This document shows, in pieces, positions 1 through 14,700 of a stretch of 64,000 nucleotides of DNA. The notes below the pieces were generated by a model. That model saw only the letters and a program-made list of their open reading frames with translations. It did not search any database and was not told the origin of the DNA. Source of the DNA: Bacteroidaceae bacterium (lineage in GTDB: Bacteria; Bacteroidota; Bacteroidia; Bacteroidales; Bacteroidaceae); contig JAGCDQ010000077.1 of NCBI GenBank assembly GCA_017651245.1, positions 31,145 to 95,144 of the forward strand, given 5' to 3'. The translations under genes were made by a program, and so were the position numbers. Positions within the stretch are counted from its first letter, which is position 1, and each line of letters opens with the position of its first letter.

Positions 1-1270
1 GCTCCTTGTAGTCCGTGTATTCAAAACGCACACCACACAAGTGCGTTGCCAAAGCAGGGAACACGGCATGCGCCACAGCAGGCTTGTAGATGGCAGGAGT
101 CTTGGAAGTGAGCAGTTCAATCAGTTTGGGCAGTTTTTTGGGCATGGAGGGGATTGAGGTTTGAGGTTGGAGGTTTGGCTCCGCCGAGCTGAAGGTTGAG
201 GTTTGGGCGTTTTCTTCTTTCTCCTCCATGCGCTGGCTTTGGGTGAAGAGTTCCTCCTGAAACCTGCAGAGCTTCTGGCTGGGGTTGTAGTACTTGGCAT
301 AGAAGTCATTCACCAGCTTCTGGATGTTCTCGTCCTGCCAGTTCTGTGGCATCAGTTCAGCCAAGAGACCGTTCACCTCGCCAATGGTGAGCAACTGCAC
401 GGCTCCACTCAGAAACACCTTCACCGTCGTGTGCCTGCCACCCTCATTCAGGAAGTCGCTCCATTTTAGTCCCTTCTCCTTCATCACCCCCTCTGCGATA
501 AAGCGAGTGCGCTCGTTAGGTTTTTCTGAACACGAACCTTCAGCTCGGCGTAGCCAATTGCTCGAATGACACGAATCATTCGTGAGGTTCGTGTTCGTCA
601 TTTCTGTGCTATCTGTGGTATCTGTGTGACATTCCTCCCACGGACAATAGTGTTTCCTTGCCTTCTTCGCCCCTGCAGGCACTTCCTCCAGTCCCTGAGC
701 CTCACGCTCTTTCAGCAGGGCATACTCAGCGGCACTCTCCTTTTGCGTCATAGGCTCCTCAAAGATGGCATCGTCCAGGAACGGGAGATCCTCCTCAGAG
801 CCGCTGGTGGAGAACACCACCCTTTGCAAGTCCTTCGTGTTCGTGTCCATCTCAATCTTCAGGGCGCAGGCCACTCTCACCTGGTTCTCCAAGATGGTCT
901 TGCCCTTCTCACGACGGCACACCAGATGCCAGCCGCCGCTGGGTGACTTCTCCAGCATCAGCAAGCCTATCTCCTCCTTCTTCGAGAGAATCAGCTGCTT
1001 CATCGCCTCCGTCTGTTCCGCGTCGTAGCAGTCGATGTCGTGGAAGAATGTCGAGCTGATATGCTTGCAGCCAGCCAGCACCCCATCCACAGGCCATGCG
1101 TTGTATGCCAGCTGCAGGAGTTGCTCCTTCTCGCCCTGCTTGCCCTTGCGATACGCTGCCAGATGTCTGAGATTATCCTTAGAGTTGCGCAGCGCCATCA
1201 ACTCCTCTCGGTTCTTGACGGGACAGGCAATCTTGTGCCTGTCCGCGTCGTAAGTGATATGACTGATCAT
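1..1270 (-). CDS. BT4734/VirE N-terminal-like protein, partial (C-terminus beyond window)
   Basis: An open frame starts at ATG 1270 and runs off the left edge, so about 423 codons are visible. The N-terminal 200 residues resemble the BT4734-like (VirE_N) domain of Bacteroidetes, with HDID near residue 80 and SPSGGWHLVCR near residue 116. In related proteins this domain precedes a primase/helicase-type region, but that part lies outside the window, so a DNA-replication role is inference. Two linker stretches look like captured intergenic repeat: a Thr/Asn/Ser-rich one (about residues 215-245, bases 535-640) and a Pro/Gln/Ser-rich one (bases 150-210). No frameshift is seen. It is the last gene of a leftward cluster that starts near 2998. 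Confidence 0.6.
   Translation of the reverse strand, partial: MISHITYDADRHKIACPVKNREELMALRNSKDNLRHLAAYRKGKQGEKEQLLQLAYNAWPVDGVLAGCKHISSTFFHDIDCYDAEQTEAMKQLILSKKEEIGLLMLEKSPSGGWHLVCRREKGKTILENQVRVACALKIEMDTNTKDLQRVVFSTSGSEEDLPFLDDAIFEEPMTQKESAAEYALLKEREAQGLEEVPAGAKKARKHYCPWEECHTDTTDSTEMTNTNLTNDSCHSSNWLRRAEGSCSEKPNERTRFIAEGVMKEKGLKWSDFLNEGGRHTTVKVFLSGAVQLLTIGEVNGLLAELMPQNWQDENIQKLVNDFYAKYYNPSQKLCRFQEELFTQSQRMEEKEENAQTSTFSSAEPNLQPQTSIPSMPKKLPKLIELLTSKTPAIYKPAVAHAVFPALATHLCGVRFEYTDYKE
150..206. repeat. Tandem 'gaggttt' repeat inside a coding region
   Basis: Short units of the type gaggttt/ggaggttt repeat here, with a 16-base segment (182-197) that occurs again as an inverted copy at 535-550. The same repeat style is intergenic elsewhere (1756-1791, 63032-63078). 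Here it is read in frame as a Thr/Ser/Gln/Pro-rich linker of the BT4734-like protein. Confidence 0.7.
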
Positions 1271-1283
1271 AGTTAGTATAGCA

Positions 1284-1595
1284 TTAGGCGCATTCTGTCA
1301 TGGCGATTTTCGCCAGTCGGTTCTCATGGTCGAGCGCCTGCAGCTTCTCGAAGTTGAACATGTCGATAGGCAGGCTGGTGAACCGTTTCACCCTCTTCAT
1401 CGACCGCTTCACCCATCCGTAGGGCGTCTTGCACAGCATCACATCCTTCGGACGCTTGTCCTTGTTCCTGTTGTATGCCTTGAAAGACAGACTTCTCGTT
1501 TCTGGGTCCAGATACAGGACACCTTCAATTCTCTTGCCCGTCAGCAGCTGCTCCAGCAACTCGAGGGCGTTCACGATAAAAATATACTTTTTCAT
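1284..1595 (-). CDS. Conserved hypothetical small protein (103 aa)
   Basis: I do not recognise a named domain. The preferred start is ATG 1595 (MKKYIFIVNALELLEQL); a longer frame back to 1694 would translate the tandem repeat at 1644-1698 and is unlikely to be protein. The product is basic (many Lys/Arg in the middle), with no signal peptide or membrane segment. It lies 13 bases upstream of the BT4734/VirE-like gene on the same strand, so the two are probably co-transcribed. Its function is unknown; a DNA-associated role would fit its charge and neighbour but is only inference. Confidence 0.6.
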   Translation of the reverse strand: MKKYIFIVNALELLEQLLTGKRIEGVLYLDPETRSLSFKAYNRNKDKRPKDVMLCKTPYGWVKRSMKRVKRFTSLPIDMFNFEKLQALDHENRLAKIAMTECA

Positions 1596-1643
1596 AATTG
1601 GATTGATTTTAGCGAGATGAAGCTTCTGATTTTGGCGCCAACA

Positions 1644-1698
1644 CCTTGAACTCTTGAACCTTGAACTCTTGAACTCTTGAACTTCTTGAACCATGAAC
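1644..1698. repeat. Tandem repeat of 'cttgaact' type
   Basis: Near-perfect repetition of ttgaac(tc/c) units lies between two leftward genes. It belongs to a set of short tandem repeats scattered through the intergenic spaces of this window. Confidence 0.8.
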
Positions 1699-1755
1699 TC
1701 TCAGTGCTCATATGAATTCCATTCGCTCCAACCCAATTGTTCTTCTTCTTTAATT

Positions 1756-1791
1756 TAAATCTCAAATCTCAAATCTCAAACCTCAAATCTC
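1756..1791. repeat. Tandem repeat of 'tcaaatc' type
   Basis: Seven-base units tcaaatc/tcaaacc repeat about five times. The array overlaps the 3' end of the P5-like gene, supplying its last codons and the TGA stop. Confidence 0.8.
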
Positions 1792-2253
1792 TGCTTGCTT
1801 TGGAAATGCAAGCAAATATCCTTTTCTCACTGTTTCCATGTCGGCATCCGTCACAAACGCATCGCCGTTCTCCACCTTTGCCATTGCCCATACAAATCGG
1901 ATGGCTTCCTCTCGCTGGGTGGCTACCCATGAGTCCACCACGATGTTGCTTGTCTCGTGCAGCCCTGTCAGTTGGCACACCCTGTCCACATAGGCACGGG
2001 TGTTGTTGTGGTCTTGGGGTGGTGCCCATCGGTTGATGATGTCAATCACCGTCCACAGCTGGTGCTTCTGGTTGTAGGTGTTCAGCAGCACGAACGCTGC
2101 CCTGTAGCCACTTTCCATGTCCCAGAAGATGCAGAACTTGCCGTCGTGGCTCCTTTGCCCCTGCCAAGGCTTGTTCACGAACGAGTGTCGGATGTTCAGA
2201 GGGTTGTTGTTCCTGATCCCTCTGGGCAGTTGCTTCGTCATTGCCTTCTTCAT
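1783..2253 (-). CDS. Phage structural protein P5-like / muramidase-like protein
   Basis: The protein has 156 aa from ATG 2253. The N-terminus reads RGIRNNNPLNIR, followed by a W.G....DG.F.IF pattern, a GYRAA segment and RWAPPQDHNNT. This arrangement is typical of proteins annotated as 'structural protein P5' in Bacteroidetes and phages, some of which are linked to peptidoglycan hydrolysis. There is no signal peptide. Its start codon overlaps the stop of the upstream gene (ATGA, 2250-2253), which indicates translational coupling. The last codons come from a tandem repeat, so the C-terminus may have been rewritten. A cell-wall-degrading role is inferred from the family, not from visible catalytic residues. 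Confidence 0.65.
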   Translation of the reverse strand: MKKAMTKQLPRGIRNNNPLNIRHSFVNKPWQGQRSHDGKFCIFWDMESGYRAAFVLLNTYNQKHQLWTVIDIINRWAPPQDHNNTRAYVDRVCQLTGLHETSNIVVDSWVATQREEAIRFVWAMAKVENGDAFVTDADMETVRKGYLLAFPKQAEI

Positions 2254-2558
2254 GATGAGATACGTTTTGAAAGATTGATCAGTTTGATGTTCGTGAACTC
2301 CCTGCCTTTGTACTCGCGAAGCGAGAATGAAATCGTCAGGTCCAGTTCTGCCTGGCTCTCCATCAGTTCTTGGAGTTGCTTCACATAGTCAGGGTTTCCA
2401 CAGGTGTGGTCGCACACCAGAATGTCTTCGCCCGGCTTGCCATCGTTGCGCACGTATGGCACACTCACTGTCACTGGGTAAGTTTCTCTTGCCTCACCCT
2501 CTTTGGTCGTCCAACTGCGTGGCTCGCCAATTGATTTGATAAAACCTGATTTAATCAT
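2250..2558 (-). CDS. Hypothetical small protein (102 aa)
   Basis: It starts at ATG 2558, eleven bases after the preceding leftward gene ends, and overlaps the next gene by four bases. Alternating hydrophobic/polar segments (TYPVTVSVPYV, ELDLTISFSLREY, FTNIKLINL) suggest a compact beta-rich fold, possibly OB-like. That would suit a single-strand DNA-binding role beside a primase-like gene, but this is inference and no family is recognised. There is no signal peptide or membrane segment. Confidence 0.55.
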   Translation of the reverse strand: MIKSGFIKSIGEPRSWTTKEGEARETYPVTVSVPYVRNDGKPGEDILVCDHTCGNPDYVKQLQELMESQAELDLTISFSLREYKGREFTNIKLINLSKRISS

Positions 2559-2569
2559 AATTGTAAGAT

Positions 2570-2938
2570 TTAAAAGTTGTAATAGATATTGCCGTTTTGG
2601 CTAATGTATTCTTCTCTGAGGTCTTCGATGGATAGTCTCTCCTCCTCGCTGATGATGCCCAGTTCGATGCTTTGGGTTTCAGTGCGCCGCCTGAGCATCA
2701 CGAACATGAGAAAATCCTTCTTCTTCACTCTACCTTGACCGCTGCCGGCATAGTCGAAGCTGGGTTCCATCTGCCAGTGGTCACACACATGGAGTTGATC
2801 CACTTCCTCCTTCTTCCCCTGCAAGGCACATGTCCGTGCAGAGGTGCTTGATAAACACTTGTGAATGCAGGATGCACAGCATTTCCTGATTCTGATGCCA
2901 CAACTGTTGGTGGCGAATTGGTTTGGTTTCTTTGCCAT
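2570..2938 (-). CDS. Cysteine-rich hypothetical protein, zinc-ribbon-like N-terminus
   Basis: The protein has 122 aa from ATG 2938. Its N-terminal half has a dense Cys/His pattern: CGIRIRKCCASCIHKC, then CAL and HVCDHW, ending in a WQMEPSFDYAGSGQG segment. This looks like a small metal-binding module of a kind common as hypothetical proteins in Bacteroidales. The C-terminal half is charged and predicted helical. It is the first gene of the leftward cluster, about 55 bases downstream of a TACCTTTG -7 element. The function is unknown. Confidence 0.6.
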   Translation of the reverse strand: MAKKPNQFATNSCGIRIRKCCASCIHKCLSSTSARTCALQGKKEEVDQLHVCDHWQMEPSFDYAGSGQGRVKKKDFLMFVMLRRRTETQSIELGIISEEERLSIEDLREEYISQNGNIYYNF

Positions 2939-2990
2939 ATTTAATCCTTTTTTAAATGTTATTATCGAACCGATTTTCTGTTTGACGATG

Positions 2991-2998
2991 CAAAGGTA
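2991..2998 (-). promoter_or_regulatory. -7 element TACCTTTG for the 2938-to-1 cluster
   Basis: The minus strand reads TACCTTTG, a perfect TAnnTTTG match, about 55 bases before the cysteine-rich gene. No convincing -33 TTTG is seen at the usual spacing. Confidence 0.6.
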
Positions 2999-3025
2999 TG
3001 GGCTTTATTTAGGGTCTAAAGTGAA

Positions 3026-3517
3026 TTAGTTTAGACTCGTTAAAAAATCGTCCATTAGCACCTGAAGTCGCTTCCTTTGTGCAGGATTTATCGCATAATA
3101 GCCCCAATTCTTGAAGATGCTATTTTTCTCCTTAGTGTGTTCAAGAGTCAGATGAAGTCGCAACTGGCTCACACGCTCCACAGGCTGGTAAATGCCCTTT
3201 ACCTGCATATTATAAACAAGCCCTGTCACGAAGTAGCGATTCAACTCACGCTTTTGCTTCATGACCAAACCTTCATAGAAAAGGTCGTCACACACTACCT
3301 TCTCCCAAATCTTCCTGATGTATGGTCGCCATTCGTCTGTAGCATACTCGTCGATGGCTTTCACATAATCCAACGCATCACGTTGGCAATGCGCCAGCAA
3401 GTCGCCTTTCGCCATTCCAGTGTTTTTCTCAGCTATATACAGCTCACCCTTTTGCCAAAGAATCAACACATTTTCAGCAGTAACGCCCTTGGTGGGCACT
3501 TTAATGAATTTCTTCAT
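3026..3517 (-). CDS. Hypothetical protein (163 aa)
   Basis: ATG 3517 (MKKFIKVPTKG) is preferred. A GTG at 3586 would add 23 residues that look like leader sequence. The protein is mixed charge, without signal peptide or membrane segment, with the recognisable stretch AENVLILWQKGELYIAEKN near the N-terminus and a basic C-terminal third. No family is recognised. It is probably its own unit: a -7 element lies at 3753-3760 and a long untranslated leader (3518-3745) with hairpins and a direct repeat separates the two. The next gene leftward starts past another promoter. Confidence 0.5.
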   Translation of the reverse strand: MKKFIKVPTKGVTAENVLILWQKGELYIAEKNTGMAKGDLLAHCQRDALDYVKAIDEYATDEWRPYIRKIWEKVVCDDLFYEGLVMKQKRELNRYFVTGLVYNMQVKGIYQPVERVSQLRLHLTLEHTKEKNSIFKNWGYYAINPAQRKRLQVLMDDFLTSLN

Positions 3518-3713
3518 TTCGTTGAGTTTGTGAGGAGAGAGGTCCAGAATTGGATCCTTTTCACTCGCGAGACTCCTTTCGCTCACTCACCCAACCGGTC
3601 GTTCCTGTTACGACCATTTAAATAATTATTTATATTACCGAGGTTTCTTCCCTTGGGGTTTACTCCCTTGATTTTCGTTGCAAAATTACGACCTCCCTCA
3701 CCCGTCACTTGGA

Positions 3714-3760
3714 TGATAGCGGACAATACCGGTCGATAGCGGAACTTTTTTGCAAAGGTA
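3714..3760 (-). promoter_or_regulatory. Promoter with direct-repeat operator candidate
   Basis: The minus strand carries TACCTTTG at 3760-3753. Just downstream, the 9-mer gatagcgga (plus strand) occurs at 3714-3722 and 3735-3743, exactly 21 bases (two helical turns) apart, with an accggt between. A second -7-like TAATTTTG sits at 3681-3688. This suggests a repressor site overlapping the start of transcription. Confidence 0.45.
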
Positions 3761-3830
3761 GATACTATTTCATTGCACCTTGAAATCTTTTGTACAATAA
3801 AAAAATGAAAAACAACCGATTGTCAATCTT

Positions 3831-3875
3831 CGTCAATGTTCGTCAATCAATATCAAAGAATTTCGTCAATGTTCA
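3831..3875. repeat. Direct repeat 'tcgtcaatgttc'
   Basis: The 12-mer tcgtcaatgttc occurs twice about 31 bases apart in the gene-free stretch 3761-3946, with further degenerate gtcaat copies around it. No gene is seen here. Confidence 0.5.
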
Positions 3876-3886
3876 TCAAAACGGAA

Positions 3887-3920
3887 AGGTGGCAAAACTC
3901 TTTTCTGAGCCTTGCCACCT
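3887..3920 (-). terminator. Hairpin downstream of the 497-aa gene
   Basis: aggtggcaa and ttgccacct form a perfect 9-bp stem. It lies 27 bases past the stop of the leftward gene at 3947. The following T tract on the minus strand is interrupted, so termination is likely but not certain. Confidence 0.5.
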
Positions 3921-3946
3921 GAATATTGAATCGGAGGACTTTTACC

Positions 3947-5440
3947 TCATACTTTTCTCAACTCTTCAAACAACTTGTTACCTAGCACCCTGTCATTTCC
4001 ACTCCATAAAGTATGCTTGGGAGCCATTTTGTTTATTTTATCAGAAAAACCATGAGCAATACGCGGAATTGTCTGCTCATCCACAAAATTCAAAATCCCC
4101 ATACCAATCAATGCCCTAACGAAATCAACATTACTTGCACTTGGCTTAACAATCCCAACTTCTCTACAAACAACTAATAGTATTCCTATTTCCGTATTCT
4201 TTTCTAAATCAATAAACGCTGCCGCTTTGTGCAACTGAGTTTGAGAAATGAGAACAGTGCCGTTTACAGTGATTGATTCTGTAATAATTTTCGTGACAGC
4301 CTTTACACATTTTTCAGGCGTCTCTTTTTTTCTATTTTCATCGTTGTTTAGTGAATTAATAATGGAAGTAGAGCTATTTGACAAGTTAGTCGCTATAGGC
4401 CCGACTAGTTTTAATCTACACACTGGCTCCTCGCAAATTTCAACATGGTCTTCTTCGTAGTCTTGAAGTAGCTCTTGATTTTCTAATTCTAATTTTTGAA
4501 TATTCATTGTGAGTTGGCGACGTAATGCCAATACTTTCATTGCATCTGCTTCCTTTTTCTTTCTAGTCGCTTCGTCGTCGAATTGTTCCCTGCCGCCTAA
4601 ATAGTTTTTTGAATATTGATTACGGATTCTTTCCCTTTTACGCTCTATAAAAGTATAATAGTTATTTCTTTCACTACGTTCATTATAATCAAACAAAATT
4701 CCTCTATGGTTATCGTCGTATTCTTTATGAAGATGATCTAACAAAGTATCAACAACGTACGAAATCATAGAAAAATGTCCAGAAGACGCTGCTGCTTCAT
4801 AGATGGCTTCTACAATTATCATCCGTTCTTTGTTGTTTCTACCAATTGTTATTAAAGCATCTTTAATTCTTTTTTTGTCAAAATCCCTTGTCACTTCCAT
4901 CCAATCTATATGGTAAATCATTTTTTCTGATAGTTCAAAACATTTGCCTGTACGTTCATCTGAATCAATTACTACGGAGCCTGTCATTTTTAGAGAATTC
5001 CGCATAACGTGAAGAGTGTTATAAATAACAGTTTTAATCGTATGGGGGTGAGGGGAATGCAACCTTAAGAGGAAATTCTTACTGGCTTCCCTTATTACTA
5101 TAATGGGGTCCTCGAAAAGATTAAGGCATTCTTGAAAAATAGAATCTAACTGATAACGAACTATCTTTGCTTCATTTGATGGCCAGTTTGCCTTAAGGTA
5201 ATCATAAACAGGGCTTATATCAACGACACCTATTTCAAATATCTCATTTTGACATGCATACTGAGCATATTCTTTAGTTTGTGTCATGGTATTACCATAT
5301 TCGTTTTCGTAAATCTCCGCTCTCGTAGTAACGGGGATTGACAATAAATCCTTCAAGGGCACTCTTTCTAATGCCTTTGCAATAGAACGACACATTACAA
5401 TCGCTCCGCCAAGAATATCTAGTGCATCTTCACTATTCAT
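3947..5440 (-). CDS. Unknown 497-aa protein downstream of a type III R-M pair
   Basis: It starts at ATG 5440 (MNSEDALDILGGAIVMC). I recognise no domain. The N-terminal 280 residues look all-helical, with NHRGILFDYNERSERNNYYTF near residue 245. Residues about 290-340 are strongly charged (RKKKEADAMKVLALRRQL) and probably form a coiled coil. A Ser/Asn-rich linker follows, and a smaller C-terminal module (about 380-497) ends in WSGNDRVLGNKLFEELRKV. The sequence is AT-rich compared with the housekeeping genes. It follows the res gene in the same direction after 111 bases, so it may belong to the same defence operon. There is no transmembrane segment, nuclease motif or NTPase motif. Confidence 0.7.
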   Translation of the reverse strand: MNSEDALDILGGAIVMCRSIAKALERVPLKDLLSIPVTTRAEIYENEYGNTMTQTKEYAQYACQNEIFEIGVVDISPVYDYLKANWPSNEAKIVRYQLDSIFQECLNLFEDPIIVIREASKNFLLRLHSPHPHTIKTVIYNTLHVMRNSLKMTGSVVIDSDERTGKCFELSEKMIYHIDWMEVTRDFDKKRIKDALITIGRNNKERMIIVEAIYEAAASSGHFSMISYVVDTLLDHLHKEYDDNHRGILFDYNERSERNNYYTFIERKRERIRNQYSKNYLGGREQFDDEATRKKKEADAMKVLALRRQLTMNIQKLELENQELLQDYEEDHVEICEEPVCRLKLVGPIATNLSNSSTSIINSLNNDENRKKETPEKCVKAVTKIITESITVNGTVLISQTQLHKAAAFIDLEKNTEIGILLVVCREVGIVKPSASNVDFVRALIGMGILNFVDEQTIPRIAHGFSDKINKMAPKHTLWSGNDRVLGNKLFEELRKV

Positions 5441-5551
5441 AGTTTTTTTTATTAGCCATCGCCATCTTCTCAGACAGCGAGGGGAATGACATATTGAAAA
5501 ATAACAGCGTCAGCTTGAACAAGTGAATGTCTGCTTAAGCGTTAAGAGTGT

Positions 5552-7621
5552 TTAGCCTTCATTAAAAGACGCTCTAAATTGCTGTTTTGTCATCGGCAGC
5601 TCTTCTCCGTCTTTATATCTGAATATCTGCCAATCATCACCCTTCTTGATAGGAATATAGAACAAGTGATTTTTCAACTTTGCGGATGCTGCCTTATAGC
5701 ATTCTTTCAGTTCGTTGATCTTTGCTTCATACTCTTGAGGGTCAAAGCCCACGGCACCATTGCCATTAACACTCTTTACCTCAAAGATATGGATTCTGCC
5801 TCGTTTATCCTTCAAAATAAAATCTGGATATGATTTATGAATGCCAGTACTATAATACTCGTATTTGATTTCAGAGTTATATGGGAAGTTTTTGCCCCAC
5901 AAATATCTTTCGTCATCATCTCCTAACTTAACTACTTCGGCGGCTTCTCTGACAGCTATCTTTGAAGCCAGATAATTCGCCCACTCTCTTTCAGCATCAC
6001 TATCGAATGCAAAAGTAGCACTTGAAGAATCTTTACGGCACCATATCCAGTCTTCAATCTCGTGACGGTTCACACTATCCATATAAGTGGAATTTACAGG
6101 GAACGAAACCTCTTTGTCTTCAACCATACTCTTAGCATAATCACAAACATACGTATCGTATTCACGTTTCACCTTGTCATAGTGTTCCATGAATGTCCAC
6201 CATTGTATATAATCTTCGTTTGCATAATCGAAACACATATCTTGCAAGGCATTATCACCCTGCTTCATCTTCTTATAAAGACTAAATATATCTTGGTAGG
6301 CAACAGGTTTGTTTTGTGTCTTCATGAAAGAATGAATGTTGAAATCCTTTCTCTCCGTTAAATCTGTCAATCTAGTTGTCTTTACGCGGAATTGCTCCTG
6401 TACGTTTACATTCCCCAATTTCCAAAGCCTAACGGGCATGATTTGCTTCATGCTATCGGGCTTAATACCCCAAACCCATGCTGTAGAAGCTAATTCTTGT
6501 GCTTCTTCTGACAGAGATTCGAAATCCGAAAGTCGAGGATTGCGACGTACTCGACCCATTACCTGTTCATCCAATTGCTTACTTTGCGTGTCTCGTACTT
6601 GGAACAGCATGCAAGCTCTTGGAATATCCCAACCCTCAGAAATCACCATTTTGAAAATGATAACGTCTATCGTTGAATTGTCCCCTTTTGCATAGTCTTT
6701 CCACCTTGCTACTGGAAGCTTCTTCTTTACGTCATCGTTAGTATCACATAGTAATTCTTTTGCTTTATCTTCGGCTCCAGTTGTTTTATATGTATTGACT
6801 ATCACCATCCATTTCAAAGCCTGATGCTTATCCAATGCTGGCTTTATTTTGTCATTCCATTCCTCTTCTGCCTTGTCTTTATTTGATATTTGAATAATTA
6901 GGCAGGGATGTACTCCTAACAGATTATTGTATTGTGTCTTGATTTCAAGGAATTTGTCAATGGCATCATCAACAGTGACATTTTCATCTTCTATCAGTTC
7001 AACTCTTTTGATAAGTTTTGCGGCGACAGCATCTTCATCGCTTATCTGTACATCGGGCACTTGACCTCTACTGAGTTTTGGAGTTGCGGAAAAATTGAAT
7101 ATGCGCCCGAAATAAGATCCTGAGATGTCATCAAGATTGTTTGTTGCTTGATGACATTCGTCTTTAATGAGGTATATTCTCTTTCCCTTACCTGTTCCAA
7201 TATAACCATCTGTCATTGTCCGCAAGAAACAGTCAAATGCACCTCTCATCAGAATGCCACCAGCTTTATATAAGTCACGAGGAAGAACATAAACATTATA
7301 ATCTGTTGGGATATACAATTCTTCCTCTCCGCTTATCTCAGTATTAATGAGATAGGGGCTCAACTCAGGGAAAACACCTGACTGAGCACACGAAAGGAAT
7401 GTGTCGTAGTTTTGTTGAGCCAGATTCCCTTTCGAGAGCGTTGATACGAGAAAAACAAGATCTCTTTGTTCTGCAAGAAGGCGATTCATGAAATCTGCCA
7501 TCATACGCGTCTTTCCACTTCCCGTTGGGGCACGAAACGTTAATTCTTTCTTCTGGCCATGCGCTTTACTATATAGTTCGGCAACAGCCTTGTTTTGTAA
7601 ATCTTTAGCGTCTTGTAGCAT
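5552..7621 (-). CDS. Type III restriction enzyme, Res subunit (helicase-endonuclease)
   Basis: ATP-dependent subunit that cleaves DNA after meeting another unmodified type III site. The sequence shows a superfamily 2 helicase: Walker A APTGSGKT at residues 31-38, DECH at 154-157, SATPK at 178-182, and a motif VI-like QVMGRVRRNP near 360. A C-terminal nuclease module has PDF (D600) and E614-V-K616, the PD-ExK signature. At 689 aa it is shorter than most Res proteins (often 900 or more). The mod gene ends 3 bases upstream of its start, so the two are translationally linked. Base use is AT-rich. Confidence in the family is high; the recognition site cannot be read from sequence. Confidence 0.9.
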   Translation of the reverse strand: MLQDAKDLQNKAVAELYSKAHGQKKELTFRAPTGSGKTRMMADFMNRLLAEQRDLVFLVSTLSKGNLAQQNYDTFLSCAQSGVFPELSPYLINTEISGEEELYIPTDYNVYVLPRDLYKAGGILMRGAFDCFLRTMTDGYIGTGKGKRIYLIKDECHQATNNLDDISGSYFGRIFNFSATPKLSRGQVPDVQISDEDAVAAKLIKRVELIEDENVTVDDAIDKFLEIKTQYNNLLGVHPCLIIQISNKDKAEEEWNDKIKPALDKHQALKWMVIVNTYKTTGAEDKAKELLCDTNDDVKKKLPVARWKDYAKGDNSTIDVIIFKMVISEGWDIPRACMLFQVRDTQSKQLDEQVMGRVRRNPRLSDFESLSEEAQELASTAWVWGIKPDSMKQIMPVRLWKLGNVNVQEQFRVKTTRLTDLTERKDFNIHSFMKTQNKPVAYQDIFSLYKKMKQGDNALQDMCFDYANEDYIQWWTFMEHYDKVKREYDTYVCDYAKSMVEDKEVSFPVNSTYMDSVNRHEIEDWIWCRKDSSSATFAFDSDAEREWANYLASKIAVREAAEVVKLGDDDERYLWGKNFPYNSEIKYEYYSTGIHKSYPDFILKDKRGRIHIFEVKSVNGNGAVGFDPQEYEAKINELKECYKAASAKLKNHLFYIPIKKGDDWQIFRYKDGEELPMTKQQFRASFNEG

Positions 7622-7624
7622 AGG

Positions 7625-9187
7625 TTAATCTTCATGTTTAACTGTCATTTGAGTTTGCGAGAAATTACTACAAACCCATTCCACTTTTTCACGGATAGTT
7701 TTGAAACATTCTTTTCCATAAAGTGTTTCATCAATGACATCAAATGGTGTTTTTCCTGCTGATGCACAGGCATTTGACACCTCAGCAATCTCGTAAACAT
7801 CCAATCGACCACCATATGGTTCGTTTTCTTCTGCCCATTTGAAATCCTTGCTACCATCATAACATTCTCCAGTCATGATACGTTTCAGGCGTTTACTCGT
7901 TACGTCATAAGCAATACCATTAGGATTTGATTCATTCTTTTCATTGAGCTGACAAAGAATGAATTCATATTTGTAGTCATCTGTGTTCAAATCTAGAACA
8001 GCGTGCCCTGTGGTGCCTGAGCCAGCAAAAAAATCCAATACTACTCCAACTTTGGCTTTACTGCTGATTTGAATAAGAGGCTTTATTAATTCTATTGGCT
8101 TGGGATTGCTGAAAAGGTTTTTTTCTCCCATTATTGAAGATAATAAATCACTGGCTCCTTGATTGTTACCAAATAAATTTGATGGCCACCAATTTGTTGC
8201 ACATTGACCTTCTTTGTCTCTTTCTGATTTATAATATTTCTTTCTTGGGAGCCCATGCCCCTTATTAGTAAAATAAATTCTTTTATCTTCTAGAAGATTA
8301 TGAAAGGTATCCTCATCTCCCATCCATATTTCTGTAAAAATATCCCCACACGGCGACGTGATGGAATAATAACATCCACCTTGGTCAGACCCCGCTTTCC
8401 AAGGTTTGCTAGCCCAATCACCACGTGGGTCATTATCAGGATTGGAAAATTTTCCTGTAATTGCAATCTTCCCAACACCATATTTTTTTAGATAGTTTGA
8501 ATCGTTAGAATACACCAAAATATGTTCTGCAACAAGACCTATCATTTTCGTCTTATCGTTAGGCTGATTATGCCTTCTTCGCCAATGTATATTACCTTGG
8601 AAGTTCTTTTCTCCAAAGATCTCATCAAACAAGCATTTTATGTAGGCTTGATTTTTATCATCTACGCTACAGAAAATGACACCTTTTTCAGACAACAATT
8701 GTTTTGCTAGTTTTAGACGGAAATAAAGCATGGACAAGAGATTATCTCTTGATATAGAATTCTCATAGTTTGTTTCTGCAAATTCCCCCATACTGTCTTT
8801 TCCATAAGGCGGATCAATATAGATTACATCAATTCCATTCCTATACTGGATTAGTAGATTTTGCAGAGCATCATAGTTATCACCAATGATAAGCTTATGA
8901 ACAGGCTCACCTTCCTTGGCTTTTCCAAAACTAAGAGCTTCGTTTTTCTTGAAATACTTAATAGTATCAGACATTCTAGGCTCTTCCATCCGTTTATCGA
9001 AATGGAAACCTGTTCGTTTGTATGTAGTGCCTAATGCGGCAATAGCCAAAGCTTCGTCATCATTATCAGCGTTGGAGATGAGTTTGCTTAATAGAGCTGC
9101 ATTGCTCGGCTCCAGTATCTTGTCTTCTACTCGTGCTTGTAGTTCCGCAAGCAAACTTTGTTTCGTTTCACTTAATTTCAGTGCCAT
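7625..9187 (-). CDS. Type III DNA methyltransferase, Mod subunit
   Basis: S-adenosylmethionine-dependent adenine N6-methyltransferase that also recognises the target site. It has IGDNYDAL at 101-108, DPPYG at 125-129 and DFFAGSGTTGHAV from 385. The catalytic DPPY before the FxGxGTT motif is the beta-class order. The roughly 200 residues between the motifs hold the putative target recognition region. At 520 aa it is on the short side for Mod. The N-terminal 60 residues are helical, as in other type III Mods. It directly precedes res and follows a run of three short ORFs, all leftward, probably one operon from the promoter at 10.2 kb. Confidence 0.92.
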   Translation of the reverse strand: MALKLSETKQSLLAELQARVEDKILEPSNAALLSKLISNADNDDEALAIAALGTTYKRTGFHFDKRMEEPRMSDTIKYFKKNEALSFGKAKEGEPVHKLIIGDNYDALQNLLIQYRNGIDVIYIDPPYGKDSMGEFAETNYENSISRDNLLSMLYFRLKLAKQLLSEKGVIFCSVDDKNQAYIKCLFDEIFGEKNFQGNIHWRRRHNQPNDKTKMIGLVAEHILVYSNDSNYLKKYGVGKIAITGKFSNPDNDPRGDWASKPWKAGSDQGGCYYSITSPCGDIFTEIWMGDEDTFHNLLEDKRIYFTNKGHGLPRKKYYKSERDKEGQCATNWWPSNLFGNNQGASDLLSSIMGEKNLFSNPKPIELIKPLIQISSKAKVGVVLDFFAGSGTTGHAVLDLNTDDYKYEFILCQLNEKNESNPNGIAYDVTSKRLKRIMTGECYDGSKDFKWAEENEPYGGRLDVYEIAEVSNACASAGKTPFDVIDETLYGKECFKTIREKVEWVCSNFSQTQMTVKHED

Positions 9188-9222
9188 ATATCATATCGTT
9201 TTTTTAAAATCTCAGTTCATCT

Positions 9223-9309
9223 TTAACATCCATTGAATAGAAAGGCAATCAGGAAAAGAATAAAAACCACTTTTATTATTAAATCACCTAATTTTTCGTA
9301 AAAATCCAT
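9223..9309 (-). CDS. Putative 28-aa single-span hydrophobic peptide
   Basis: A short frame from ATG 9309 to TAA encodes a polar N-terminus (MDFYEKLGDLI) and then a hydrophobic stretch (VVFILFLIAFLF) ending NGC. It fits neatly between two genes with 30- and 35-base gaps on the same strand as the R-M operon. The shape recalls small membrane peptides of type I toxins or holins, but could arise by chance in AT-rich DNA. There is no independent proof that it is translated. Confidence 0.4.
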   Translation of the reverse strand: MDFYEKLGDLIIKVVFILFLIAFLFNGC

Positions 9310-9339
9310 ATAACTTACTCCTTTCTAGTCTTCAAACAA

Positions 9340-9747
9340 TTATCTATCTTCCTCCTTCACCCCATCATTGTCCTCCTCTACTAATCTCTTTAATTTCTCC
9401 CTATCTTCTTGCACCAAGTCGTAATTCATCTCTGCTATACGGAAGTAAGTTCTAAATCTGCCGTAATGCATGATAATGCGACGGAATTCCTTGAATCGCT
9501 TCTCCTCTGGCTGCTCTTCCATCAGTTTCATACCCTCCGCCATCCAATATTCGAACTTGTATTGGGCAACTCTTGACTGCCATTTCTTGAATGCCGCAAT
9601 AGCCTTGTCTTTACGTTCGATCTCAGCTTTCAAGTCGTCGTTCTCAGCTTTCAGAATGCCGTTTTCAACCTGAAGAGCATGCTTCTCTTGTATGACATAT
9701 CTTAGCGTTGTCTCTGGGGGCAAACCTTCGTTCATCGTCCTTGGCAT
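9340..9747 (-). CDS. Coiled-coil hypothetical protein (135 aa)
   Basis: It starts at ATG 9747. Residues about 18-55 form an obvious coiled coil (repeated ENGILKAENDDLKAEIERK type heptads), followed by a basic helical region (RVAQYKFEYWMAEGMKLM, RFKEFRRIIMHYGRF) and a very acidic C-terminus. There is no signal peptide. Its C-terminal LVQEDREKLKRLVEED resembles the end of the 68-aa protein encoded just upstream (LVKEEDRKLF). It lies in the leftward run leading into mod and res. The function is unknown; a DNA- or subunit-binding adaptor is one possibility. Confidence 0.6.
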   Translation of the reverse strand: MPRTMNEGLPPETTLRYVIQEKHALQVENGILKAENDDLKAEIERKDKAIAAFKKWQSRVAQYKFEYWMAEGMKLMEEQPEEKRFKEFRRIIMHYGRFRTYFRIAEMNYDLVQEDREKLKRLVEEDNDGVKEEDR

Positions 9748-9761
9748 ATCTCTATTCCTCC

Positions 9762-9968
9762 TTAATCGTAAAACAACTTTCTATCTTCCTCCTTCACTAA
9801 GTCCCATTCTTCCAGAGCTTCCAAAGGGCGTCGGTTCTGCCTGCGTGCCGTCTTGTACTCCTTCGTCAAACCATATTTGGCAGCAATCTGCAAGGCGATG
9901 CGGTCTTGGGAAGTCAATTGCTGACCACCGAACAAGAAGTGCCACATATCAAGGAGTAAATGCTTCAT
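9762..9968 (-). CDS. Hypothetical small protein (68 aa)
   Basis: It starts at ATG 9968 (MKHLLLDMWHFLFGGQQL). The N-terminus is hydrophobic but too short to be a clear membrane span; the rest is basic then acidic (EWDLVKEEDRKLFYD). The gap to the next gene is 14 bases on the same strand. It is the first protein-sized frame after a 220-base leader containing a hairpin. No family is recognised. Confidence 0.5.
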   Translation of the reverse strand: MKHLLLDMWHFLFGGQQLTSQDRIALQIAAKYGLTKEYKTARRQNRRPLEALEEWDLVKEEDRKLFYD

Positions 9969-9987
9969 CTTTCATCAATCGTTAAGG

Positions 9988-10173
9988 TTAGAAATAAAAG
10001 ATATCAGGTATAGACACAACAAAAGCCCTGCCACAATAGGTCATAGACCTATGCAGCAGGGTGGGTGTGGTAATTCCCGATGGAACAGTGTTTATCTTAC
10101 ATTGCGCAATAGGGGGGGGTAATAACTCCCTCAAAATCAATGTGTTATATTGAAAATCGTGTATATTAGACAT
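9988..10173 (-). other. Leader region with 61-codon ORF, possible attenuator
   Basis: The transcript expected from the promoter at 10196-10227 begins about 20 bases before an ATG at 10173 that opens a 61-codon frame ending at 9988. The frame includes Leu-Leu-Pro-Pro-Pro from a C-run and covers the hairpin at 10026-10061. The peptide has no recognisable features. Either it is a leader ORF coupled to attenuation, or the stretch is a structured untranslated leader with a chance frame. Confidence 0.35.
10026..10061 (-). terminator. Attenuator-like hairpin in the leader of the R-M operon
   Basis: The inner stem ATAGGTC/GACCTAT and outer stem CCCTGC/GCAGGG are separated by a small internal loop. 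On the minus strand the hairpin is followed by a T-rich tract (CTTTTGTTGTG). It sits between the promoter at 10.2 kb and the first protein gene, so it could cut off transcription early. Confidence 0.5.
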
Positions 10174-10195
10174 AAATGCTTAGGTTTTGTAGTTG

Positions 10196-10227
10196 CAAAG
10201 ATAAATCAAATTCACAACCCTACCAAA
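10196..10227 (-). promoter_or_regulatory. Promoter of the leftward R-M operon
   Basis: The minus strand reads TTTG (10227-10224), 20 bases, then TATCTTTG (10203-10196). This is an excellent match to the Bacteroidetes -33/-7 pattern and is the only strong leftward promoter seen before mod and res. Confidence 0.65.
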
Positions 10228-10264
10228 TTTTCCTCCAACTTTTTCAATAAATAGTGGTAGGGGT

Positions 10265-10440
10265 GTATACAGTATACAGTATACAGTTTTCTCAGCAGCA
10301 CATCGAAACTTGGGGAAAGAAAATTACATTATCTAGAATATAATATTATATTTTATATAATGTCAATGTATTATACTCTCTTTTCTTGGCTTGACTATAT
10401 ACCTGCTCCCTAAAAAACTGTATAACTGTATACTGTATAC
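10265..10440. repeat. Nested inverted repeat (GTATACA arrays around an AT palindrome)
   Basis: The left arm (10265-10290) has three tandem gtataca units running into gtttt; the right arm (10414-10440) is its reverse complement with one extra base. Between them, 10326-10363 is a near-perfect 38-bp AT palindrome with arms ACATTAT/ATAATGT and centre AATATAATATTATATT. There is no transposase, and no target duplication is seen. It lies between divergent promoters for the R-M operon and the HU-like gene. Confidence 0.8.
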
Positions 10441-10515
10441 AATCAACCCCCAAAAAGGACTAATAATCACCCATAAAAATAATCAAGAATAATTTGAAAA
10501 AAAATCTACAAATGC

Positions 10516-10546
10516 TTGCATATGTCAGAAAAAAGTCGTAACTTTG
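10516..10546 (+). promoter_or_regulatory. Promoter of the HU-like gene
   Basis: TTG at 10516-10518, 20 bases, then TAACTTTG at 10539-10546. It leaves an unusually long 5' leader of about 265 bases before the HU-like start. Confidence 0.65.
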
Positions 10547-10643
10547 TACCAGAAATGAAGAAAGATTATTTTCAACCTTAACCCTAACGATAACCATAAC
10601 GGAAGGGGTAAGGAATACCACGAAAAACAAGCCGGCGGCATCG

Positions 10644-10802
10644 ATGAAAAGAGGCGGCGGCAAAACACGAAAGAGACGACGGCAAAGCCATGGATTGCCG
10701 ACGGCAATTTCAAGACAGGGAATAAGTCCCCTTTCCCGAGGAGAGAAGGAGCTGCAAAGGCACTCCGGAAGCCCAAAGTTGGGGGCAGAAAAATTATCTT
10801 AA
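10644..10802 (+). CDS. Possible 52-aa basic leader peptide
   Basis: An ATG frame inside the long HU-gene leader encodes a very basic N-terminus (MKRGGGKTRKRRRQ) and ends at TAA 10802, sixteen bases before the HU-like start. The leader is much more GC-rich than the DNA upstream of the promoter. Coding is uncertain; the stretch may instead be a structured RNA. Confidence 0.3.
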   Translation: MKRGGGKTRKRRRQSHGLPTAISRQGISPLSRGEKELQRHSGSPKLGAEKLS

Positions 10803-10818
10803 AATAAATCTAATTATC

Positions 10819-11451
10819 ATGAGCAAGATTATCTATCGAAAGATTCGCACCGCCCCTGGTGTGAAGCAGTACCTGGACGAGCAGAAGACCCAGGTGAACC
10901 CTCAGTTCGAGGCAAGCGCAAGCTACTACGCACAGTCTGTGGCGCTCGAGACCATGAGCCTGCGCGACATGGCAAAGCACATCACCTCACACGGCTCTCC
11001 CTTCACTGTGGACGTGGTGATCGGCGTGCTGGAGGCATTCCGCTCCTGCCTCATCGAGCAGCTGCTGGAGTCGAAGAAGGTGAAGGTGCAGGGACTCGGC
11101 ACGTTCTACGTGACCATCGCCAACAAGGACGGCGGCATCAAGAACCTCGACGACTTCAACATCAACACCCTCGCCACGGGTCTGCGACTCCGCTTCCTGC
11201 CTGAGGGCGCGACCGAGGAGAGCATCTCCAGCAAGGACTTCCTCCGAAAAGCAAGCTTCGTGGACGTGGCTACCCTCACCAAGGCGAAGACCGTGGAGGA
11301 CGAGGAGACCGACGAGAACGAGGTGTCTGGTGGTGGCAACGATAACGGTAACGTTAACGATAACACTGGCGGCAACACTGGCGGTAACACGGGTGGCAAC
11401 ACTGGTGGCAACAACGGTGGTGGCGACGATCAGGGAGATGGAACCTTTTAA
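10819..11451 (+). CDS. HU-like (HU-HIG type) DNA-binding protein
   Basis: The protein has 210 aa from ATG 10819. Residues about 1-125 match the HU/IHF-like fold of the Bacteroidetes HU-HIG group: RDMAKHITSHGSPFTVDVV, then LESKKVKVQGLGTFYVTI. After a charged segment the C-terminus is a low-complexity tail of GGNT repeats (about 175-205). Codon use is GC-rich compared with the R-M genes. It is followed by the smalltalk gene, an association common in Bacteroidales. It probably binds DNA as a dimer; its targets are unknown. The repeat tail may vary in length between strains. Confidence 0.85.
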   Translation: MSKIIYRKIRTAPGVKQYLDEQKTQVNPQFEASASYYAQSVALETMSLRDMAKHITSHGSPFTVDVVIGVLEAFRSCLIEQLLESKKVKVQGLGTFYVTIANKDGGIKNLDDFNINTLATGLRLRFLPEGATEESISSKDFLRKASFVDVATLTKAKTVEDEETDENEVSGGGNDNGNVNDNTGGNTGGNTGGNTGGNNGGGDDQGDGTF

Positions 11452-11482
11452 AGGTTAAAGGTTAAGGGTTAAAGGTTAAAGA
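11449..11482. repeat. Tandem 'ggttaaa' repeat
   Basis: Units of aaaggtta/agggtta repeat between the HU-like stop and the smalltalk start. This is the same family as 57388-57420. Confidence 0.75.
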
Positions 11483-11484
11483 CC

Positions 11485-11589
11485 ATGGAAAAGAAGCGTT
11501 GGATTGAGTTGGCAGTGAAGATTGCAGTAGCCGCACTCACAGCATTCCTGACCGCATTGGGAACCACCAGTTGCATGAGACTCCTTTGA
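11485..11589 (+). CDS. Smalltalk family protein
   Basis: A 34-codon gene from ATG 11485 to TGA 11589. It has a basic start (MEKKRWIEL), a hydrophobic alanine-rich helix (VKIAVAALTAFLTALG) and the end TTSCMRLL. This matches the tiny 'smalltalk' proteins of Bacteroidales, which have a Lys-rich start, one helix and a TSC motif near the C-terminus, and which usually follow an HU-like gene. The cysteine sits after the helix rather than in a typical lipobox. Function is unknown in the whole family. It is followed by a strong terminator. Confidence 0.85.
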   Translation: MEKKRWIELAVKIAVAALTAFLTALGTTSCMRLL

Positions 11590-11646
11590 GAATGAGGAAT
11601 TAGGAATGAGGAATTAAGGGTTCAAGAAGTTCAAGGGTTCAGATAA

Positions 11647-11681
11647 ACAGCCCACGCAACGAGCGATGTTGCGTGGGCTGT
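11647..11681. terminator. Bidirectional terminator after smalltalk
   Basis: acagcccacgcaac and gttgcgtgggctgt form a perfect 14-bp stem with a 7-base loop. It sits between the rightward smalltalk gene and the leftward BspA-like gene and can serve both. Confidence 0.8.
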
Positions 11682-11702
11682 TCTATGTTGTGTAAGGCGG
11701 TG

Positions 11703-14700
11703 TTACTTAATCATGAACAATTTGCCTTGGTGGATGTACACACCTTTCTGGGTGGGTTTGCTGTCGAGGCGAACGCCACTGAGGGTGTACCAACTGTCAT
11801 CTCTTACCTCTTCCTTCTCAGCTATTACATCTTCGATGGCGGTTGCATTGGCTTCTTCAAGCTTCAGAGGAATCATGTCGTGACCCAGCGCCTTCCACGC
11901 CTCGAAGTCAGACTTCTTCACTCGTAAGAATCCATCATTATCATGAATTCCACTGCTTTCAGTAATTGGGTAGAATCCACGCACTGCACCTGAGCCTTCA
12001 AGCAGGAGGTTGATCCCGTCATTTGTAAAGTTTTCAGGATTAGTATAATTTCCCATGAGCATGTTGCCTTCTACCTTATTGGCTCCAACAGTCACTTTGG
12101 CGTTGTAGGTGCCAGTTTCGCCCATCAGCAAGTATCCTTCATCGCCTGCCAGTTCCGTCACAGACTTGAGGATGAGTGTGCCAGTGGCGGGGTCGAATCT
12201 GACGATGGCATACGCCTTGAGTCCTTCGCAGGCTGAGAGGCCGAGGTCAGCCCCATTGCGGTAGGCTATAACACCTTCTGATTCATCTGTGATGTCAATG
12301 CTGACATCGGATGAGAGGATTTCATAACCATATTCCGAAATATGGGATTCATAAGCCGTGCTGTAGTCTGCCACACTGGAGGCAGGTACGAAGATATTGG
12401 TAACGAGATATTCTTTGCTGCCATAATTCTGAAGGAACGCTTGGTTCAAATCTACACCAGCACCTTTGATGAGGGCATAGCCATAATAGCCAAGGCTTTC
12501 GTAATTATAGAAGGCTTTCTCAGGCAATTGGGTGACACCTTCCTCCACCACAACACGTCTCATGTCGTTTTTGAAGTCTTTCCAAGGCTCGCCAGTCACG
12601 TTGCCGCTGATGGTGAGGACGCGGCTGTCTCGGTCGTAGTTCCAGCCTTCACCACTGGTGGCAGCCACATAGAGGTCGGCATAGTGCTCCGAAATGGCTG
12701 TGTTCTTGGCTTCGTCGGCAAAGTAATCTTTGATAATCACTTTCACATAATATTTACCAGCTTCAGTCACTTTTTCCAGGTCAGGATCCTGGTTTTCCTT
12801 CCGATAGTAGAACGTACCTCTAGGAAATAGTTTGCAATCGTATGTGCAATCAATGCCATTGATGGTTGCCTTGGCATCTTCTATCCAGTAATTCGGTTCT
12901 CCTAACATGGAGATGTCACCTGTATAGTGGTCGGTATCCCATTTCAGCGATCCTCCGCTGTAGTACTCTGTCATCGATTCTCCGCTGAAGTCCACTTTCA
13001 GCGTGCCTTCGCTCAGATAGAAGCCCTCCACCTTGACGTTGAAAGCCTTGAGCATTTCCTCGAGGGATGCTTTTAGGTGGTTAGACACATAATAGGTCTC
13101 ACCCACGTTGGCAACGCTGTAGCCGTCATCCGATGTTTTGATAGGAATGGATTCCCAATCTAAACATATCACTGTCTTCAGTTTGGAACATCCCTGCAGA
13201 GCACCTTCGCCGAGACTATAGACCGAAGGCGCCAACGTGACGCTCTCCAAGTTCTTGAGTCCGTAGAAGGCATAGTCACCGATGGATCCGACGCCATCTT
13301 CCGCCACGATGTGCTCGATGCCATCTTCAACACCCAGACGCATGACACCCTCTGCTGTTGTCCAAGTGCGCCAGGGGGCAGGTTTAGCAGATGAGTCTGG
13401 GTCATACTCTTTGGCGAAGTTATCTGTTCCTGTATATTCACCGCTGAATGTCAGTGTCTTGGTGTCTGCGTCGTAAGACCAGTGACAATTGCCATAATTG
13501 AGGGAACCCTCCGTCGATACTTCCTCATCGCTGAAACACATGGTAATGGGCGTTGTGGCTCCCTCATAGTCTTCATTCGCAAGTTTCAGGTATGCCTGAC
13601 CTTCCATATTTTTGGATTCTGTGAATTTCTTGAATTCGGTGCCGTCGAGGTACAGGTAAATGTCATTAGTGTCCCCTGTCGGGTCAACGTCATCGTCACC
13701 TTTCTCCAGCAGATTATTTCTCCAAGTTCCTTTAATACTTTTTTCGATGGCGTATGTTGCGCCTGGCGTACCTTTCAGCACCAAGCCCTGACCATCCTTC
13801 GTTTTCATCACACGCTCCATGACCACTTTTCCTGTGGCAGGGATGAACTCAGAAGCGATGTAGGCTTTTAGTCCTTCAGTATGGGAGAAATCAAGTCCAT
13901 AGTCGTTCCACCACCCCAAGTTGCTGCTGAAGGTCATGACACCCGATGCTGGAAGCGTGACGGAAAACTCGATTGCAATGAAATCAGAGAAGGAATTGTC
14001 CAACCAGGAAGCATAGGTGGTTTTGTAACTTGCCAGCATGCTGCTGGGCACGTGGATGTTATAATCCAAATTGTCTTTCTCGACACCTCCATCTACATAT
14101 TTAATGCTAAACGCACCATTCAAGTCCACCACAGCAGTGCTGCGCATGAAGACTTGACGAAGAATCTCGTATGCATCGTTGTCAGTAAAGGCATTGGCAG
14201 GCATTTTTGTGACATCCTTCTCAACGATGACATTTTCGATGAAACCAGCGAACGACATCCAAGGCTCTCCTGTCACATTGCCACTGATGATCAAGGTCTG
14301 CTTGCCATAATCGAATGCCCAACCTTCGCCACTGGTGGGAGAGCTGAGCACCGTGAAAGGTTCGGAAATGACGTTTCTATTGGCTTCGTCAGCAAACACA
14401 CTATTGACACTAACATTGTAGCGGTAATCACCCGTTTCTGTCACGTCAGCGTAATTCATGAGTTTCGTTGTGCCTTCTTTCAGCACACCCTGGTAATATG
14501 GATCTGATAGTTCTGCACCATTCTTGACGGTGTAGTTCTTCCCATTGATGGTGACGGTGTGGTCGCCATTGAGCGTCAATGTGCAATATGAGTGGTAATT
14601 ATCACTCTTCTGTACATCCAACAACTCACGAGTTGCCACTTTGGGGGTTGCCTTGAAGCCATTTCCTGTCAGCAGGAAGCCCTCAAATTTGGTGTCAGAA

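Follow-up and report, generated by a model that had tools for sequence, protein, structure and literature searches.

A homopolymeric C tract and a small conserved gene upstream of a type III restriction-modification pair in a Bacteroidaceae bacterium: a candidate ON/OFF switch

Results

The DNA analyzed here is a stretch of 64,000 nt from a Bacteroidaceae bacterium (assembly GCA_017651245.1, contig JAGCDQ010000077.1, positions 31,145 to 95,144 of the forward strand), called the window in the following. Its minus strand carries what, judged by motifs and family matches, is a complete type III restriction-modification (R-M) pair, mod and res, which is preceded by the gene of a conserved 68-aa protein and by a leader open reading frame (ORF) with a run of eight C residues (C8; Table 1). 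The R-M pair itself is ordinary, and the control region is the finding. As the best explanation of the whole locus we tentatively propose, at a little less than an even chance, that a horizontally acquired mod-res pair is transcribed from one promoter and that the translated C8 leader acts, together with the 68-aa gene, as an ON/OFF switch. Coordinates without a label refer to the window, L-numbers to fetched contigs or loci and G-numbers to genomes.

The leader and its C tract

In 5' to 3' direction the minus strand contains the promoter motif, the ATG of the leader ORF (10173), the C8 tract, a terminator-like hairpin, the stop of the leader ORF (9988) and the ATG of the 68-aa gene (9968). 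The strong promoter described in an earlier note on this DNA is present as a motif with TTTG at 10227 and TATCTTTG at 10203-10196, which we take to match the Bacteroidales promoter consensus. The hairpin leader of the same note was also confirmed, although the leader ORF and the C tract within it had been missed. The region around the hairpin folds at -25.2 kcal/mol (z -4.25 compared with 200 shuffles), and a search of positions 1-12000 with Rfam yielded nothing at gathering score. The sequence TACCCCCCCC has three copies in the 2.83-Mb genome of the organism, one of them at this leader; no R-M or 68-aa gene follows the other two within the 10 kb inspected around each.

Translation in silico with altered tract lengths revealed that the present length is the one that carries the leader ORF past the hairpin. 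With C8 the ORF ends at 9988, beyond the hairpin and 19 bp before the start of the 68-aa gene. With C7 it ends at 10092 and with C9 at 10097, both before the hairpin, and C6 and C10 likewise end at 10097 or 10092.

For comparison we collected relatives of the 68-aa gene from Bacteroidales genomes and from contigs filed as viral and obtained 19 distinct loci after merging copies and setting weak matches aside. Dropped as copies were L073-L075, L079, L093, L097 and one of L098/L099 (same-size contigs or near-identical neighbouring ORFs), dropped as weak were L091 (36 residues, E 3.6e-9, no R-M genes seen nearby) and the phage matches L102-L104. At nine of the 19 loci a C/G run of at least seven is located within 700 bp 5' of the 68-aa gene, and the leaders, 13 kb in total, contain nine of the 14 such runs in 527 kb (binomial p 7e-12). 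Runs of at least eight are present in 8/19 leaders versus 2/312 control genes (Fisher p 1e-9). The two control genes lie in L068 and L117, and the control is the stricter because L116 and L117 were fetched for holding such a run. Without the window and L092, where the tract was first noticed, the count is 6/17 (p 2e-7). These p-values are optimistic, given the relatedness of the 19 loci and the fact that the window and L092 had first suggested the idea.

The tract-bearing leaders also resemble each other in their spacing. The distance from the -10 motif TAnnTTTG to the leader ATG is 28-35 nt at seven of the nine loci, and the distance from the ATG to the tract is 48-55 nt at six of them. At L068, L070 and L092 the leader ORF with the present tract length reaches to at most 13 nt before, or just beyond, the start of the 68-aa gene as placed; at L072 and L095 read-through to this start needs one more G. 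A short lipoprotein-like ORF, identified by eye, is situated between the leader and the 68-aa gene at L068, L069, L070, L072, L076, L092 and L095 and is at several of these loci in frame with the leader ORF; none was seen in the window. A scan of viral contigs with the leader pattern gave 22 matches, six of them with a promoter-like motif. No 68-aa core was found near any of the 22, and the six with the motif show no downstream ORF larger than 118 aa on the same strand; these matches were rejected as chance or unrelated.

The 68-aa gene and the genes that follow it

Relatives of the 68-aa protein are present in 5 of 44 other genomes of the genus and in 10 of 399 genomes of the family (the own genome and one borderline case included), and in none of 383 other genomes in the order sample. 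The genome collection contained eight loci, of which four lie on contigs seen before, and two scans of viral contigs yielded 12 loci. The family shares the core pattern DRIAxxIAxxxGxxxEYKxAR...PxEALEDWD. Analysis of a 36-codon core demonstrated that the protein is under purifying selection: dN/dS is about 0.03-0.22 in 13 close pairs with defined dS (undefined in 3 further pairs), and the differences at the three codon positions are 0.31, 0.21 and 0.58. The sole Pfam match was Bse634I with E 0.019 and 14.8 bits at a cut-off of 27; NCBIfam, PADLOC and PHROGs gave no match, and no helix-turn-helix controller family was among the sequence families hit.

R-M genes are located at most 2.3 kb downstream of the 68-aa gene and on the same strand at 14 of the 19 loci (14/23 if the four weak loci are added), compared with a base rate for a random gene of well under 1% by our own arithmetic. 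The systems belong to type I (eight loci), type IIG or ISP (three), type III (two) and C5 type II (one). Between the 68-aa gene and the first R-M gene there are at most 2.3 kb and three ORFs, and in some cases the two genes are adjacent. Ten of the 14 loci have a recognisable restriction subunit or IIG fusion. The methyltransferase gene of L089 appears to be interrupted. At L078 we rejected an empty integration site; the locus is a deletion scar, because remnants of the start of the methylase and of the end of the S gene are still in the sequence. The association is one-way, from the 68-aa gene to R-M genes and not the reverse: N6_Mtase matches were obtained in 33 of 45 genomes of the genus, roughly two per genome, and among the matches listed three (in G014, G597 and G197) have a 68-aa gene at most 4 kb upstream.

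Some further genes at these loci were observed in passing. At four of the 19 loci a GIY-YIG/T5orf172-like gene, named by eye, separates the 68-aa gene from the R-M genes. Hydrophobic ORFs occur in 8 of the 14 R-M operons, a bare count from which we draw no conclusion. The multigene set at L072 (L072:3038-14728) includes a 1051-aa protein that has no match in PADLOC and a weak tubulin-like match (0.00077) that stays below cut-off, and may represent an unnamed defence system. Among small ORFs arranged in tandem in a phage contig (L103:4741-5110), one is weakly like the 68-aa core (38%), which hints at a wider phage family.

A proposed switch and its alternatives

According to the proposed mechanism, mod and res would be transcribed from one promoter through the translated leader. 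With C8, ribosomes would cross the hairpin and end translation shortly ahead of the 68-aa gene, which would put the operon in its ON state. Slipped-strand mispairing by plus or minus one C would cause translation to stop 31-36 nt before the hairpin; the uncovered hairpin could then fold and reduce transcription of the 68-aa gene, mod, res and the gene of a 497-aa protein that follows them (OFF). Since the R-M enzymes that it accompanies are too different to share a subunit, the 68-aa protein most likely influences how the operon is expressed or established. The earlier note had suspected an added effector or control layer. An added control layer is likely, since the leader and the 68-aa gene recur before many R-M systems, and it would consist of these two elements; the effector half of the suggestion has found no support.

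Several observations weigh against this switch. A tract of eight C residues is short for slippage, and 10 of the 19 loci have no C/G run of at least seven. The loci are not independent of each other, and the tract lengths were taken from draft assemblies. At L080, L089 and L090 the start of the 68-aa gene is not reached at any of the lengths tried (-1, present, +1), so that read-through by frame accounts for six of the nine loci with a tract but not for the other three. Of 18 leaders examined, three gave a hairpin match, with like hairpins at L068 and L072, and a similar element was seen by eye at L092; for its hairpin the model depends on the window, L068, L072 and, in part, L092. At L092 the C7 form of the ORF ends beyond the hairpin, and therefore only C9 fits the model there. 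Downstream of the 68-aa gene, one to three ORFs intervene before the R-M genes at several loci, and a methyltransferase alone was recognised at 4 of the 14 R-M loci (L071, L080, L092 and L095), of which L080 ends soon after. N6_Mtase genes in the genus are mostly distant from any 68-aa gene. The 68-aa core is also found beside phage genes (L098/L099), weak matches to it come from phage contigs that lack R-M genes (L102-L104), and two tblastn searches using relatives revealed none in plasmid or phage records.

In a wider form the proposal would state that Bacteroidaceae and their phages carry a portable module, composed of a promoter, a poly-C leader ORF (in some cases with an attenuator hairpin) and the 68-aa gene, which phase-varies several types of R-M systems via one leader switch and without repeats in the R-M genes themselves. 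We regard this generalization as doubtful. According to the main rival of the proposed switch, Bacteroidaceae phages and mobile elements have a cargo slot that is marked by the 68-aa gene with its leader; R-M systems would simply be the commonest cargo, and the small protein would have no part in controlling them. Many of the loci are indeed near genes like the presumed primase-like and the lysin-like gene of the window, or in contigs filed as viral; the cargo is not R-M at L072, at L088 and L101 or at L098/L099; L069 and L070 have a common backbone with different cargo; and L078 has retained the 68-aa gene after loss of its R-M genes. However, the 68-aa gene stays upstream of R-M genes and on the same strand in several contexts, selection maintains its protein, and the sole multigene locus without R-M genes, L072, has a copy truncated to 51 aa. 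Taken together, a mere cargo slot appears unlikely to us.

It is less probable still that the tract acts through the peptide, with Pro-Pro-Pro stalling ribosomes and attenuation setting the level of expression without any slippage of the DNA. The pattern N-x-L...L-(x)-PPP is common to the leader peptides of the window, L070, L080, L089 and L090, in which the tract encodes the three prolines; leaders of this pattern are found ahead of both type III and type I systems, and not in a single genus only, and in the window a hairpin follows downstream of the tract. In contrast, L068 and L092 read the tract in another frame (TPP), L072 and L095 have G tracts, and a pure run of C is kept instead of mixed proline codons.

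The mod-res pair and the genes of the cassette

The six ORFs of the earlier note (68, 135, 28, 520, 689 and 497 aa) were all found on the minus strand at the positions and with the sizes described. The cassette is AT-rich, with a GC content of 0.35-0.41 in 1-kb windows over 3501-11000, compared with 0.48-0.54 over 1-3000 and 0.47-0.53 over 10501-14500. Features of the cassette and the genes found at related loci are listed in Table 1.

Table 1. Elements of the R-M cassette in the window and genes downstream of the 68-aa gene at all loci
Feature	Position or locus	Strand	Basis or remark
Promoter, Bacteroidales-type (TTTG ... TATCTTTG)	10196..10227	-	motif
Leader ORF, 61 aa	9988..10173	-	at C8 stops 19 bp short of the 68-aa gene
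C8 homopolymer tract, within leader ORF	10112..10119	-	sole C/G run of at least 7 in the 64-kb window
Leader hairpin, terminator-like, then CTTTT	10026..10061	-	inside leader ORF, downstream of tract
68-aa small conserved protein gene, precedes R-M genes	9762..9968	-	family search, selection test
135-aa protein, possibly coiled-coil	9340..9747	-	no relatives found
28-aa hydrophobic peptide ORF	9223..9309	-	ORF list
mod, putative type III beta-class DNA methyltransferase, 520 aa	7625..9187	-	DPPY 125, FAGSG 387
res, putative type III restriction subunit, 689 aa	5552..7621	-	GSGKT 34, DECH 154, PD...EVK 599
497-aa unrecognised protein, probably co-transcribed passenger	3947..5440	-	family searches, synteny
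Intrinsic terminator-like hairpin, 14 pairs	3887..3920	-	3' of last gene (497 aa)
Type III R-M	window, L096		downstream of 68-aa gene
Type IIG or ISP R-M	L068, L069, L077		downstream of 68-aa gene
Type I R-M	L070, L071, L076, L080, L089, L090, L094, L095		downstream of 68-aa gene
C5 type II methyltransferase	L092		downstream of 68-aa gene
R-M deletion scar	L078:10162-10325		methylase start and S-gene end remain, 68-aa gene intact
Helicase gene, type IV/PbeA-like PADLOC matches	L088, L101		L101: after opposite-strand ORF
Multigene set, weak tubulin-like match, truncated 68-aa copy	L072		downstream
Phage genes, read by eye as holin/lysin	L098/L099		downstream
GIY-YIG/T5orf172-like gene	L071:10775-11629, L076:2717-3346, L094:10706-11380, L096:9371-10210		by eye

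Mod matches Pfam N6_N4_Mtase (3.5e-34) and PADLOC MTase_III (2.8e-72) and, among PDB sequences, solved Mod chains, with Mbo45V as the best; Res matches ResIII (9.6e-15) and PADLOC REase_III (5.7e-24) and none of the PDB sequences. The catalytic motifs looked for are intact in both subunits, namely DPPY and FAGSG (FxGxG) in Mod, and Walker A, DExH and a C-terminal PD-(D/E)XK motif (PDFILKDKRGRIHIFEVK) in Res. A search of 393 genomes of the order revealed four close relatives of Res with 50-60% identity in four other genera, and all four loci are plain mod-res pairs with a Mod of 540-562 aa and a Res of 676-696 aa; none of them has the 497-aa, 135-aa or 68-aa gene among the listed ORFs of at least 50 aa. 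The reduced size of Mod and Res, taken earlier as the mark of a variant, is therefore ordinary for this subfamily, of which, on the evidence of four loci, the extra genes are no general feature. Within the genus Res gave weak matches, in 6 of 44 other genomes, and in plasmids, phages and viral contigs distant matches or none.

The 497-aa protein has no family above cut-off in Pfam, NCBIfam, PADLOC, PHROGs or the PDB sequences and no match in the plasmids, phages and viral contigs searched. One relative was detected in 200 other genomes of the family (C-terminal 118 residues, 35%) and none in 392 other genomes of the order; it is encoded away from mod-res, directly 5' of a relative of the 790-aa gene that lies to the left of the window. 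The gap of 111 bases between res and the 497-aa gene (5441-5551) is as described earlier. A terminator and promoter that would isolate the gene from res were sought in this gap, and neither a terminator nor a TAnnTTTG or TTTG motif was found there; the strong terminator-like hairpin is located 3' of the 497-aa gene, at 3920-3887. A single transcript through this gene is plausible for these reasons, and the gene is probably co-transcribed with res. The 135-aa protein has no relatives in 44 other genomes of the genus, and its proposed coiled coil is backed by some Pfam matches, all weak and below cut-off. No relatives of the 28-aa peptide were found among the ORFs of at least 60 aa at the loci.

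Unrecognised ORFs of 410-551 aa are also located 3' of the R-M genes at L069:4851-6083, L070:5203-6720, L076:9423-10853, L090:7284-8804 and L095:6457-8112. Comparison of those of L069, L070, L076 and L090 showed that only the L070 and L076 proteins are alike (26%). An RteC/DUF6043-like C-terminal domain as their common element found no support: matches were weak (among them DUF6043 with E 0.12 on the G073 relative), and further comparisons gave nothing significant. Only the proteins of 505 and 476 aa and those of 497 and 277 aa are related. The view of the earlier note, in which the 497-aa or the 135-aa protein would be an added effector or partner of a variant type III system, could draw on the same-strand position of the 497-aa gene, on the uninterrupted gap before it with the hairpin behind it and on the trailing ORFs of other 68-aa-led cassettes, but is very improbable, as neither gene accompanies any of the four closest mod-res pairs, both proteins are nearly without relatives and the 497-aa protein is not significantly similar to the trailing ORFs compared. 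The two proteins are most likely passengers of the cassette.

Comparison with known systems

With its adjacent mod and res genes and their methyltransferase, helicase and PD-(D/E)XK motifs, the pair resembles known type III systems, of which Mbo45V and EcoP15I are the solved Mod relatives; PMC8259958 names the same motifs for type III. The locus differs from a typical type III system in its compact subfamily, in the leader and the 68-, 135- and 28-aa ORFs that precede mod and in the 497-aa ORF behind res. In common with phasevarions based on simple sequence repeats it has a homopolymer in a translated frame, the length of which sets the extent of translation. Here, however, the tract is part of a separate leader ORF and not of mod or hsd, and such leaders precede type I, II, IIG and III systems. 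To our knowledge, known phase-variable R-M systems contain the repeat inside the R-M ORFs.

Slipped-strand or repeat-driven phase variation is established for type I and type III R-M systems according to PMC12707154 and PMC11868660. For Bacteroides the reviews name invertases; in one of them RM systems of Bacteroides strains are also said to be under the control of phase-variable genes. AG repeats in mod are described in PMC3498834, and phase-variable type I systems of P. gingivalis and P. intermedia in PMC5690328. C proteins are introduced in PMC3874152 as helix-turn-helix regulators of type II systems. Like the present operon, theirs have a small gene that precedes the R-M genes in the same orientation. 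In contrast, the 68-aa protein matches no helix-turn-helix family and accompanies several R-M types.

No report of a repeat-bearing leader and a small protein common to several R-M types in Bacteroidales was found in the excerpts, mainly of open literature, that were searched. If the switch is real, it would be a repeat-driven one in Bacteroidaceae, where the reviews consulted name other genera for repeats and invertases for Bacteroides, and one control module would serve unrelated restriction systems. The 68-aa protein constitutes a new small protein family, a candidate for R-M control and a sequence marker for possibly switchable R-M operons.

Genomic neighbourhood

The 790-aa gene, a lysin-like gene and small ORFs recur together, at 1-3586 of the window and up to about 1.1 kb to its left (L020:10042-12414). 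The lysin-like gene of the window (1783-2253) has a phrog endolysin match of 1.2e-38. Genes of the 790-aa type, which we take to be VirE/primase-like and for which Pfam gives no family, have relatives in 37 of 45 genomes of the genus (the own genome included), often several per genome.

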